From assembly GCA_003245895.1 (NCBI GenBank), contig QKBZ01000073.1:1-51903 (forward strand): DNA of 51,903 bases, in the 5' to 3' direction. A model generated the notes under the pieces. It searched no databases. It saw nothing but the letters and a program-made list of their open reading frames with translations, and was not told where the DNA came from. Every line of letters begins with the position of its first letter. Position 1 is the stretch's first letter. Positions 1-47,474 of the stretch are shown here, piece after piece. The translations under genes were made by a program, and so were the position numbers. Origin of the DNA: Beggiatoa sp. Lineage in GTDB: Bacteria; Pseudomonadota; Gammaproteobacteria; Beggiatoales; Beggiatoaceae.

Positions 1-274
1 GTGCTTGTATGCGCAAGCTTATTCATATCTGTTTTGCTGTTTTGAACAAGCAGACAGAATATTGTCCACAACTTAGCTAAAGTTAACTCGTTTTTTTCTT
101 TCCTTGCTACAAGAAGGCTTGACTTTAGAGACGGTATCTACAACCAATTTAAAATTTCCCCTAATCCTGAAAATTCTATAATCCTGTAAATCCTGATTCA
201 GACAACACCCATTAAACATCACGATAATGCTAAGGTATTATAGGAAAAGTGAAAAAGAATAAAGAGAAAAGGGA
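1..274. other. Non-coding left edge
   Basis: This AT-rich stretch lies downstream of the minus-strand SUMF1-fold gene. I see no convincing ORF, tRNA or strong hairpin in it. I looked for a second copy of the end of the SUMF1 gene, as a template repeat would be, and found none. The window edge cuts off whatever follows. Confidence 0.5.
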
Positions 275-2788
275 TTAAATCCTGGCGCATATCCGAAAAC
301 CGCCAGAGTTGAAGCGGTAAGTAGCAGCGTGGCTGTTGCGAGACGCCGAGCGGCAGCTATCCGTATTGCCGAGCCAAGAGCCGCCGCGCAAGAGGCGGGA
401 CGCTCCATCATCTAGCCACGCAGAACCATCCGTTGGCGCGCCTTGATAACTATCATGATAAGTATCCAAACACCACTCCCAAACATTGCCTGACATATCA
501 TATAAACCAAATGGATTCGCACGCTTCTCCCCAACTAGATGTGTTTTACCACCTGAATTATCCTTGTACCAACAGCAACCACCATCCATGTCATTGCCCC
601 ACCAATAACGGGTTTGCGTATCTCCTCGCGCAGCATATTCCCATTCTGCTTCCGATGCTAAACGATATTCACGTCCGCTTTGCTCAGATAACCAATCACA
701 ATAGGCCACAGCATCATGCCATGTCACATTGATTACTGGTCGCTTATCTCGCCCCCAACCTTGATCACTTGGCTTTTCTCGCCCTGTTGCCTGACAAAAA
801 TGGTCATACTCTGCAAAAGTGACCAGATACACACCGATAGCAAAACTGGCAACCGTCACACGGTGTACTGGTTGTTCATCACCATGACCCTGACTATCCC
901 CCATCTGAAACTCACCACCCGCTAACACCTTCATCAACGGTGTTAAGCCTCCTTGTGACAACTCATCTTGAAAGGTATCCCCCGCTTGCAAACATGGCTC
1001 AGCCAACACCAATGCCGTCTCCGCCTGTTCCAAATCATGCAACACAATCTCAACCGCTAACTGTCGGAATGTGTTATGCAATGGACTATTTACCTGCAAA
1101 CCGGACAAAGCTTGCTGAAACGCCTGCACATCCGCCCGCTGCTGCGCCTCTGGCTGCGACAACTTCGCCAACGCCGCTTGCACCGACACATCCTCTAACA
1201 CTGTTCGCACCCGCTGCGCCTCATCTGGTTTATTTAACTGCTGATATGCCTCACTCAAAGCCAACAAATACGGCACATCAGGCATAAACACTGAATCGGC
1301 GGCAATCTGTTCCACTCCATGCGCTGCCAACCACAACCGCACCGACTCCGCCACCACTGCCGAAGCATGCGACTGATCCGGCAACTGCGCCAACCCTGTC
1401 GCCAACGCCAGCAATACACTTGGCACACGATAAGGCTGTGTCGCCGCTAAAGTTTGCAACAACTGCTGATAACCTTGCACTAAATTGCCAATCAACTCCT
1501 GAACCGGCAACACACCCAATTGATCCGCCGCCAACAACTCGGACAATAAACTGGGTAACTTTAACGCCGTATCGTGATACACCAAATGATGCACATCCGC
1601 CAACCAACAGGCGACAATGGCATGCAAAGTCTCTAACGTGCCATACAATGCCTCCCAATCCTGAGCACTGACATGATACTTATGCTCAATCTCATCAATC
1701 CCCGCCTCGGCTAAAGCTTCCGCCTCTGCCATTAACAAGGCATTTAACGCATCAAGCCCGAACTCACTTCCTGCAACCGTCGCCCCGCCATACCGCTTCT
1801 GAATCGTGTCAATATCCTTACCCAAAGCCAACAACTTATCCCGCGTCACTAACCATTTCTTAGCCCGCGCTTTTGCCGAGGCATACAACACTTGTTTATA
1901 GGGAAAACGCGAAATGATGTCCTCATAAAAATAATGACTGTCCTCTGGCTGCCCTAAACCCCAATACGCCACTTTTAAATTAATATACTCACCAAACACA
2001 CTGGACTCTAATACCATCGTTGGCTCAGATTTCAACATGCCAAACAAAGTCATCATGCTGGCACCGCCATGATAACGATTGCTATCCCATGAACCATCTA
2101 ACAACTGTGTCGGACGCTCTGTATCAGTAAACGCATAATGTCGATTTAACACCTTGCGCAGACTACTGGCTAAAAACTCCTCAATTTTCGGAAACTGCGT
2201 TGCATTCCCGTGCTTGTCGTACTCCACCTCCGGCGGCGACAACACAATGCGCAACGGCACAGCACCCTGACCTTTATACGCATCAATAATTTGAAAGGGC
2301 GGTATGCGTAACGGCCAATTATCAGACAAATGCTTAAATGCTTGTGAAGCTAATGCCGTTTCTCGGTTAGCTTGCGCGGTTAACAAATTGCTCTCGCGTT
2401 GATATGCCGCTAACTCCTGTTGAAAGCGTATTTCTTCCCCTAACTTCCACGCTTGAAATTTAAAATTATCTTGCTGCAACTTGGTATTAACCTCCGCACG
2501 ATACTGCTCCACAGCCATTTGATGCTTGTGATCAAGCTTTTTAAGATGCAAAGCAAACTCACTTTTTGCCGCCTCTAAACTCACTTGACGCTCAAAACCA
2601 ATCGCTGCCATACACGCTTGAAACCGCTGCTGCCCGATTTGCTCTCGCTCACGGGCGGCGATTTGCAAAGCAGCCACTTTAAGCTGTGTCTCGCGTTGTC
2701 TATCCGAGACAGTTAATTGAGTGCTACGATTGACTAAAGAACCGGAAAAAAAGGAAGCAATTGCTGGAATTAAAAGAGGAAATGCCAT
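275..2788 (-). CDS. Coiled-coil protein with C-terminal SUMF1/FGE (C-type-lectin fold) domain
   Basis: An 837-residue protein. The start at 2788 is chosen because AAGGA lies about 10 bases before the ATG. A frame extension to 2863 only runs into a REP element. The N-terminus has a short hydrophobic segment (about residues 1-16), then a charged, Gln/Glu-rich probable coiled coil (about 20-150), then a middle region I do not recognise (about 150-600). The SUMF1/formylglycine-generating-enzyme-type domain fills about residues 622-837, with GGEFQMGD, RPVINVTW, YRLASEAEWEYAARG, GLYDMSGNVWEW and LLRGGSW motifs. In true FGE the two catalytic cysteines lie five residues apart after the GGSW-like motif. 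Here the first is Gly and the second is Cys, so copper-dependent FGE activity is unlikely and a ligand-binding role is more plausible. The last 120 or so bases are GC-rich and full of codons ending in C, unlike the rest of the gene. Function unknown. Confidence 0.85.
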   Translation of the reverse strand: MAFPLLIPAIASFFSGSLVNRSTQLTVSDRQRETQLKVAALQIAAREREQIGQQRFQACMAAIGFERQVSLEAAKSEFALHLKKLDHKHQMAVEQYRAEVNTKLQQDNFKFQAWKLGEEIRFQQELAAYQRESNLLTAQANRETALASQAFKHLSDNWPLRIPPFQIIDAYKGQGAVPLRIVLSPPEVEYDKHGNATQFPKIEEFLASSLRKVLNRHYAFTDTERPTQLLDGSWDSNRYHGGASMMTLFGMLKSEPTMVLESSVFGEYINLKVAYWGLGQPEDSHYFYEDIISRFPYKQVLYASAKARAKKWLVTRDKLLALGKDIDTIQKRYGGATVAGSEFGLDALNALLMAEAEALAEAGIDEIEHKYHVSAQDWEALYGTLETLHAIVACWLADVHHLVYHDTALKLPSLLSELLAADQLGVLPVQELIGNLVQGYQQLLQTLAATQPYRVPSVLLALATGLAQLPDQSHASAVVAESVRLWLAAHGVEQIAADSVFMPDVPYLLALSEAYQQLNKPDEAQRVRTVLEDVSVQAALAKLSQPEAQQRADVQAFQQALSGLQVNSPLHNTFRQLAVEIVLHDLEQAETALVLAEPCLQAGDTFQDELSQGGLTPLMKVLAGGEFQMGDSQGHGDEQPVHRVTVASFAIGVYLVTFAEYDHFCQATGREKPSDQGWGRDKRPVINVTWHDAVAYCDWLSEQSGREYRLASEAEWEYAARGDTQTRYWWGNDMDGGCCWYKDNSGGKTHLVGEKRANPFGLYDMSGNVWEWCLDTYHDSYQGAPTDGSAWLDDGASRLLRGGSWLGNTDSCRSASRNSHAATYRFNSGGFRICARI

Positions 2789-3217: not shown

Positions 3218-3589
3218 TTAATCGTCACTACCGCCACCACATGAACCTGAATCACCACCACAAGAGGAATCATCATTACTGGACGGTGTATCCATATAAG
3301 TCGTTGAAGTGTTACAACCATTCATATCTATATGAGGCGGTGGCTGAACAATGGTAACAGGCAATGGATTGGGGATATTTAAAGCACTGTGCATGGATAA
3401 ATGCTGTGCATGACTATCATCCCATGCACTCTCCGCACTCAACGGCGTGTCTAAAATCGCATTCATGGCATCATGCACCACAGAATGATCCAATGTCGGC
3501 GAAGCAAGCGGATCAGCAAAAGACATCGTATCAACACCCGCATAAACAGCACTTGAATCATCCAAGCCTGCATAAGTGGTTTCATCCAT
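3218..3589 (-). pseudogene. Low-complexity acidic protein, distal part with Cys/Gly-rich tail
   Basis: A 123-codon reading frame rich in Asp, Ser and Ala, ending in a tail with SSCGGDSGSCGGGSDD. Its first codon overlaps the end of the upstream frame (3582-3776), one base out of phase. No ribosome binding site precedes its ATG. The two frames share an acidic Asp-Pro-Ser-rich composition, with DPFAS in one and DPLAS in the other. I therefore read them as one protein broken by a single-base frameshift, a programmed frameshift, or a sequencing error. Translational coupling of two real genes cannot be excluded. Small proteins with CGGG tails are known from many bacteria, but I cannot assign a function. 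Confidence 0.5.
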
Positions 3590-45815: not shown

Positions 45816-46619
45816 TTAAGCTAAATTCTCTAGGCTTTGCATATCTAACCCCGTAATTTCAGCAATAGCTTCTAACGACATACCTTGCGCTTTTAATGCT
45901 TTGGCAATGGCAAGCTTTTCTTGCATGCGCCCCTTTTCTTCGCCTTCCCGCAATCCCTTTTTATACACCGTCGTTTCCAGTGCATATTCCTCTTTCATCC
46001 GCGCCCGATCTTGCGGTGTTAAATTATCACGGCTGATTAAATTCAATGCTTTTAACACCGCCGGATGATGATAAGTCGCTTCATCAACTTGTTCATCTAA
46101 GCTGTCTTTAATTGCGCTTAACCATTCGTAATAAGGTGCAGGGATTTGCTCTGTGACGTGTTTGGGCGATAAATACAGCACTTTGTGAGGAATTTCGCCT
46201 AAAGGTTTTCCAGTTAAGTGATCAACAGGATCAAAATAAATGGTAGAAATAGCGGATTTATGCGCGTTATTGCTGGTTAACACCACAATGGTGAACACTT
46301 TTAACGCAGGGCGGTAGTTTTTCGCATTTGTGGCTTGTTCCAGTAAAGCCGCACAGTGGTAATGTAAAAAGCGGTCGTAGTGGTCTTCATAAAAACGATG
46401 TTGAATATCAACAATGATGCGGTTAACCGTATCTTCAGCATATAAATCAAAACGTGAATCGACATTGCCTATCGGTGGGGTAAACGATTTCTCCGTTTCT
46501 ACTTTATCGATACACAGATCAATGCCCAGCACATCTTTCACAAATGCTGTGAACACTTCTACATCACAAAAGGCTTTTTTAAAAATGACACCATAACGCA
46601 GTGATGCAACCGCCTTCAT
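45816..46619 (-). CDS. Rpn/PD-(D/E)XK nuclease family protein, copy 1
   Basis: A 267-residue protein of the Rpn-like PD-(D/E)XK transposase/nuclease family. It begins with the family motif RYGVIFKKAFCD. DSRFDLYAED and IIVDIQHR (Asp71-x-Gln73) stand for the catalytic D...(D/E)-x-Q. A charged segment GLREGEEKGRMQEK and a small helical tail (MSLEAIAEITGL) follow. It is nearly identical to copy 2, 27 bases upstream. GAGG lies eight bases before the ATG. Relatives promote RecA-independent recombination, but the role here is unknown. Confidence 0.87.
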   Translation of the reverse strand: MKAVASLRYGVIFKKAFCDVEVFTAFVKDVLGIDLCIDKVETEKSFTPPIGNVDSRFDLYAEDTVNRIIVDIQHRFYEDHYDRFLHYHCAALLEQATNAKNYRPALKVFTIVVLTSNNAHKSAISTIYFDPVDHLTGKPLGEIPHKVLYLSPKHVTEQIPAPYYEWLSAIKDSLDEQVDEATYHHPAVLKALNLISRDNLTPQDRARMKEEYALETTVYKKGLREGEEKGRMQEKLAIAKALKAQGMSLEAIAEITGLDMQSLENLA

Positions 46620-46646
46620 GTTTTGAACCTCTTTTTTAAAATGGTT

Positions 46647-47474
46647 TTATGTCAATTCGCTCAATATCTGCTGCTCTAAACCGGTAATGTCTGCAATAGC
46701 ATCTAACGACATGCCCTGCGCTTTTAACGCCTTCGCAATCGCTAATTTTTCTTGCATACGCCCTTCCTGCAAACCTTCCTTGCGCCCCTTTTCTTCGCCT
46801 TCTAGTAAGCCTTTTTTATACACCGTTGTTTCTAGCGCATATTCTTCTTTCATCCGCGCCCGATCTTGCGGCGTTAAATTATCACGGCTGATTAAATTCA
46901 GTGCTTTTAATACCGCTGGATGATGATAAGTCGCCTCATCAACTTGTTCATCTAAGCTATCTTTAATCGCGCTTAACCATTCGTAATAAGGTGCAGGGAT
47001 TTGCTCGGTGACGTGTTTCGGCGATAAATACAGCACTTTATGCGGAATTTCGCCTAAAGGCTTTCCAGTTAAATGATCGACTGGATCGAAGTAAATGGTA
47101 GAAATAGCGGATTTATGTGAATTATTACTGGTTAACACCACAATAGTGAACACTTTTAACGCAGGGCGGTAGTTTTTCGCATTTGTAGCCTGTTCCAATA
47201 AAGCAGCGCAGTGATAGTGTAAAAAACGATCATAGTGGTCTTCATAAAAACGGTGTTGAATATCAACAATAATGCGATTAACCGTATCTTCTGCGTATAA
47301 ATCAAAGCGAGAATCGACGTTACCTATCGGTGGGGTAAACGATTTTTCTGTTTCTACTTTATCGATACACAGATCAATGCCCAACACATCCTTCACAAAT
47401 GCGGTGAACACTTCCACATCACAAAAGGCTTTTTTAAAAATGACACCATAACGCAGTGATGCGACCGCTTTCAT
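46647..47474 (-). CDS. Rpn/PD-(D/E)XK nuclease family protein, copy 2
   Basis: A 275-residue tandem paralogue. Over the first 220 or so residues I see about two amino-acid differences from copy 1 (Ser for Ala in NNSHK, Leu for Arg in KKGLL). DNA in a compared 180-base stretch (47236-47415) differs at roughly 15 positions, all synonymous. The charged linker is longer by one EGRKEGLQ-type unit, and the last residues diverge (LEQQILSELT). GAGG precedes the ATG. It lies 15 bases after lpxH on the same strand. Confidence 0.87.
   Translation of the reverse strand: MKAVASLRYGVIFKKAFCDVEVFTAFVKDVLGIDLCIDKVETEKSFTPPIGNVDSRFDLYAEDTVNRIIVDIQHRFYEDHYDRFLHYHCAALLEQATNAKNYRPALKVFTIVVLTSNNSHKSAISTIYFDPVDHLTGKPLGEIPHKVLYLSPKHVTEQIPAPYYEWLSAIKDSLDEQVDEATYHHPAVLKALNLISRDNLTPQDRARMKEEYALETTVYKKGLLEGEEKGRKEGLQEGRMQEKLAIAKALKAQGMSLDAIADITGLEQQILSELT

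Follow-up and report, generated by a model that had tools for sequence, protein, structure and literature searches.

A probable orphan target of a diversity-generating retroelement in Beggiatoa sp.: an FGE-type gene with a variable-region-like end

Introduction

A gene at the end of a contig of Beggiatoa sp. closes with codons that differ from those of the rest of the gene, which raises the question whether this tail is the variable region (VR) of a diversity-generating retroelement (DGR) and, if so, whether such an element still acts on it. The window, i.e., the whole stretch of DNA analysed (51,903 nucleotides), makes up contig C5 in full; the draft genome to which it belongs measures 4.9 Mb in 451 contigs and is 99.5% complete. 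According to our analysis, the tail is with high probability the VR of a DGR. The gene itself is best read as an orphan or degenerate DGR target that was diversified in the past and is now probably static, its VR of about 121 bp being frozen in one state; to this reading we assign a probability of roughly 0.6.

Architecture of the target gene

275..2788, complement strand: target gene with FGE-type C-terminal domain, 837 aa if translation starts at 2788, as is likely (open reading frame and homologue alignment)
290..934, complement strand: FGE-sulfatase (C-type-lectin fold) domain, PF03781 (Pfam match 178 bits; PDB matches PvdO and TvpA)
1250..2320, complement strand: N-terminal module, joined in relatives to different C-terminal domains (homologue comparison)

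The target gene is a single open reading frame, whose longest version starts at 2863 (275-2863, complement strand); the start at 2788 is considered likely as the homologues L104, L105 and L186 align from about there. The protein is composed of an N-terminal segment, followed by an unassigned module and by the C-terminal FGE-type domain, and the PF03781 match, by which the fold was assigned through sequence homology, reaches the protein end. PF03781 is shared with the formylglycine-generating enzyme (FGE; SUMF1; PDB 2q17, 6muj). Alignment to these FGE structures confirmed what a preliminary description of the sequence had read as "Gly then Cys" at the catalytic pair: the first catalytic Cys is Gly in the window protein and the second Cys is kept, i.e., the catalytic Cys pair of FGE is incomplete. 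The peptide motifs of the gene end (LLRGGSW...CRSASRN...YRFNSGGFR) are likewise present as first described. However, as RGGSW...GFR is general in FGE-type tails, enzymes included, with or without DGR action, the motif alone proves little. For the last 124 residues the closest PDB chain is TvpA of Treponema denticola (PDB 2y3c; E = 4.8e-19), with 72 bits compared to 45 bits for FGE, and the likeness includes RGGSW and the Cys after it. TvpA is part of a DGR, whereas the window target is without a cassette in the assembly.

The N-terminal module (about 360 residues) could be assigned to no Pfam family and to no confident PDB entry by sequence or fold, and a structure model of it (mean pLDDT 75, five sequences) had no counterpart among PDB folds at E <= 0.001. 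It is lineage-restricted (window 1250-2320, L104, L105, L131, L186), having not been found in the 273 other genomes of a sample across the class, and besides FGE-type domains it is joined in four same-family genomes to WD40 repeats (G024, G018), to a dynamin-type GTPase (Dynamin_N; G011) or to Lcl_C (G031). The module is possibly a component of a conflict system. The architecture is consistent with a putative sensor carrying an exchangeable binding head, as was proposed for DGR targets of multicellular bacteria (PMC10907252). A small Gly/Cys-rich gene upstream (3218-3589) at first resembled a gene next to a G011 homologue, but was rejected as its counterpart, the BLASTP similarity not being significant.

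Complete DGRs in same-family relatives

A search of 43 same-family genomes with a DGR reverse-transcriptase (RT) query revealed the DGR motif IGNLTSQ/VGNLTSQ in the RTs of more than 10 of them. The templates beside eight of these family DGR RTs encode RGGSWNNNPNN.RSANRNRNNPDNRNNN.GFR or close variants, and the matching stretch of VR and template amounts to 117-134 bp. At six loci the neighbouring VR equals the template at all 63-72 non-A core positions and differs at 14-18 adenines only. In this working version, an error-prone RT copies the template-repeat RNA and inserts any base where the template has an adenine, for the most part in AAC/AAT codons. The cDNA then takes the place of the VR up to the invariant 3' end, by which some 13 ligand-face residues of the FGE-type C-type-lectin domain are re-randomised.

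Six DGR targets of the same family (L134, L136, L138, L139, L141, L143) show the tail motif and the NNY columns as in the window; L134, L141 and L143 also show the CCAG(G) end, and most of the six are followed by a CT tract. In contrast to the window target, all six have an RT nearby and a template matching all non-A core positions. The templates of relatives were also tried as direct source of the window VR and were rejected, with at least 19 non-A mismatches (best: 19 of 63 non-A sites). In a separate observation, a Methylococcaceae protein of 1625 aa (L018, 8072-12949) was found to contain three FGE-type domains, all of them with VR-like tails; an open reading frame for a DGR reverse transcriptase comes after it.

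A codon scar at the gene end

281..401, complement strand: predicted variable region, about 121 bp (codon scar; bounds taken from the VR/template pairs of relatives)

In the last 41 codons of the gene (278-400, complement strand) 22 end in C (53.7%), compared to 9.1% of the other 792 codons, and the highest other non-overlapping stretch of 41 codons contains 10. Given the residues and the codon usage of the window, 12.3 C-ending codons would be expected in the tail (simulated P = 0.0009). The GC content is 61.8% in the tail and 48.5% in the rest of the gene; yet another stretch of the gene is at 63% GC, so that the tail is exceptional in third-position C and not in GC alone. The preliminary description of a GC-rich, C-ending gene end is confirmed. 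Its extent up to 434 has to be shortened, as the composition changes at about base 400 and the 11 codons upstream (401-433) include no C-ending codon.

At the 13 columns where the templates of relatives encode Asn, the tail codons are all NNC or NNT: CTC GGC AAT GAT AGC TCT AAC CAC GCT TAC TTC AAC TCT. When the column pattern was placed along the target gene, 13/13 NNY was obtained in one of 810 placements, i.e., in the tail itself, and paralogues in this genome that are clearly not VRs show 6-7 NNY codons of 13. The Leu codon of the tail is CTC, C-ending codons making up about 2% of Leu codons in the window. Conditional on the amino acids the NNY scar is only moderately improbable (P = 0.008).

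Further FGE-type genes of the genome have similar ends. A second one (contig C284:1-1190; L005, L190) has a VR-like tail with 13/13 NNY, nearly all of them NNC, and a CT tract (run of 23) past its stop codon; for this paralogue no template was found in the genome. FGE-type tails on contigs C124 (L009) and C352 (L011) have 12/13 and 13/13 NNY and are without a CT tract.

The 3' end and the polypyrimidine tract

281..304, complement strand: IMH-like invariant 3' end, GGCGGTTTTCGGATATGCGCCAGG (CCAGG end as in L141; L143 and L134 end in CCAG)
242..274, complement strand: polypyrimidine tract TCCCTTTTCTCTTTATTCTTTTTCACTTTTCCT, directly 3' of the stop codon

The match of VR and template stops at CGCCAGG in L141 and at CTCCAG in L143, and the target sequences continue past it with ATTTATTAG and GATTTTTTAA, respectively. 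The 3' end of the gene in the window reads ...TGCGCCAGG, then ATTTAA. At the CCAGG/ATTT junction the gene end agrees with L141 and L143, by comparison with the VR/template pairs of relatives, and it is a candidate IMH-type end.

The polypyrimidine tract is the sole 33-mer with at most two purines on either strand of the window, and comparable CT tracts are found behind proven VRs in the relatives. CT runs of 14-36 were observed in nine tails with 0-2 non-A template mismatches versus 5-20 in nine template-distant tails (Mann-Whitney P = 7e-4), a small comparison with groups picked post hoc, drawn from related genomes and containing some recent duplicate copies, so that the association may reflect shared descent and not function. 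The paralogue on contig C63 of the same genome has no CT tract, and just past the matching part of the relatives' templates no such tract was found. A hairpin search after the VR gave a stem of 5 bp only. A literature search of partial coverage for DGRs together with polypyrimidine tracts returned no description. We tentatively raise the idea, which we hold to be rather doubtful, that the tract could act in cis in the DGRs of this clade, e.g., in cDNA integration or strand opening, as a mark of targets that depends on neither template nor RT and would thereby permit orphan recognition.

Search for a template and a reverse transcriptase

A search of the genome with PF00078 revealed two RTs: a truncated group II intron RT with the motif QGGVISP, and a retron-type RT on contig C60 with the motif QGAPTSP. 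The latter (C60:8534-9172, L004; 469 aa) has its best match in PADLOC RT_XIII (642 bits). DGR RTs carry (I/V/L)GxxxSQ versus QGxxxSP, and neither of the two has the DGR motif; motif and family exclude both the C442 and the C60 RT as DGR RTs. Across the 451 contigs no DGR RT was found by Pfam family, by single sequence or by a ten-row profile of family DGR RTs, the profile matching only the group II RT. For Avd (PF05635), an accessory protein that some DGRs lack, no match was obtained in the genome, and the same search matched in no control genome either. No RT pseudogene or other intermediate of cassette loss was found.

Templates were searched with patterns in which each VR base could be itself or A, with up to three further mismatches. 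These patterns recovered 6 of 6 known templates of relatives as positive control, and in the whole assembly they matched only the VR itself. Family-wide patterns gave, besides the VR itself, only A-rich low-complexity matches, which were rejected as templates. Local searches near the FGE paralogues and in the neighbourhood of the two RTs yielded no template, nor did bases 1-274, for which its absence had already been noted. The genome search that had been suggested for a near copy of the gene end and for a DGR-type RT found neither, the outcome that had been named beforehand as speaking against a working element, as far as the assembly reaches. The idea of the tail as DGR variable region is well supported by the TvpA match, the templates of relatives, the 13/13 NNY columns and the 3' end with its tract; a working element is not, with no template and no DGR RT in the assembly.

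Surroundings of the locus

1..144, forward strand: IS110-family insertion sequence, terminal part with the transposase C-terminus (repeat copies)
162..207, no strand assigned: copy of a dispersed repeat of about 45 bp, MITE-like (about 40 genome matches)

The contig ends 274 bp past the target gene, and the break lies inside an IS110 element, which is reached 130 bp past the stop codon. Segment 1-144 has copies of 97-100% identity at seven other places of the genome, nearly all of them contig ends, and a diverged copy on contig C107 was identified as Transposase_20/DEDD_Tnp_IS110. The dispersed repeat sits between the stop codon and the IS110 element; several of its matches form inverted pairs about 12-15 bp apart. 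Elsewhere in the window, two tandem near-identical open reading frames of 267 and 275 aa (45816-47474, complement strand) were observed, which we take to be transposase-like members of the PD-(D/E)XK nuclease family.

Comparable loci were described among the DGRs that multicellular bacteria carry (RT clade 5). At several DGR loci of Thiohalocapsa PB-PSB1 the RT or the template was displaced or disrupted by transposons and MITE-like arrays, and some population variants, as for DGR 7, kept them (PMC10907252). As in the window, in these DGRs, among them the degenerate DGR 3, 4, 5 and 7 of Thiohalocapsa, an FGE/CLec VR forms the C-terminus of large proteins whose N-terminal part varies (PMC10907252). 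The degenerate loci and the window are also alike in having transposons and MITE-like repeats beside the VR, with RT and/or template missing. They differ in that neither RT nor template is found anywhere in the Beggiatoa sp. assembly, and in that the N-terminal module of the window protein is not STAND, vWA or another named domain.

Discussion

The orphan reading is based on the codon scar, the TvpA match, the complete DGRs of relatives, the IMH-like end with its tract, the missing RT and template, the IS110 element and repeat downstream, and the Thiohalocapsa precedent. Cassette loss at this locus would fit the comparison with those degenerate loci, and it may have been caused by one of the two downstream neighbours, the IS110 insertion or the MITE-like repeat. 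The present protein would then be a fixed binding protein or sensor, with the FGE-type head reporting to the N-terminal module. The reading is weakened by the end of the draft contig so close to the gene, where a cassette could be unassembled, by the lack of an RT pseudogene, by the P value of 0.008 and by the occurrence of the motif in all FGE-type tails.

An active DGR target, with template and RT in unassembled sequence (e.g., beyond IS110) or in part of the population, is unlikely, although it is the strongest of the alternatives. The contig breaks within a repeated insertion sequence near the stop codon, the scar shows no damage, NNA and NNG codons being absent from the 13 columns, and in Thiohalocapsa the RT and template of DGR 7 were kept only in some variants (PMC10907252), all of which would suit such a target. 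The completeness of 99.5%, a template that is nowhere in the assembly and the finding of a DGR RT fragment on 0 of the 451 contigs, even with the profile, argue against it.

It is more improbable that the tail is of the ordinary FGE type and never served as a DGR target, with NNY and third-position C arising from local composition or chance. This would be in line with the generality of RGGSW...GFR, enzymes included, with the absence of a cognate template and with the 19 of 63 non-A sites at which even the best template of a relative is off, but it leaves the sharp change at base 400, the 13/13 NNY columns, TvpA as closest chain, the CCAGG end and the polypyrimidine tract to coincide, while non-VR paralogues reach 6-7 of 13 and the C63 paralogue is without the tract.

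Least probable of all is that recombination or gene transfer brought the FGE-type domain, VR included, from a DGR target elsewhere to a resident N-terminal module, at a locus that never had its own cassette. The swapped C-terminal domains of relatives (WD40, Dynamin_N or Lcl_C) and the sharp composition change at the VR could be cited for this, but an NNC scar itself predicts such a change at the VR edge and the further VR-like paralogues in the genome suggest a past resident system.

If the gene is the orphan DGR target that we prefer, it has consequences for how these systems are counted. DGR surveys are usually RT-first, so that targets outliving their machinery remain uncounted; such orphan targets would be recognisable by the codon scar together with the 3' end and the downstream tract, and the polypyrimidine tract is a testable candidate for a cis-element. 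If the protein is still used after freezing, it would show the fixation of a binding specificity that was found by hypermutation.
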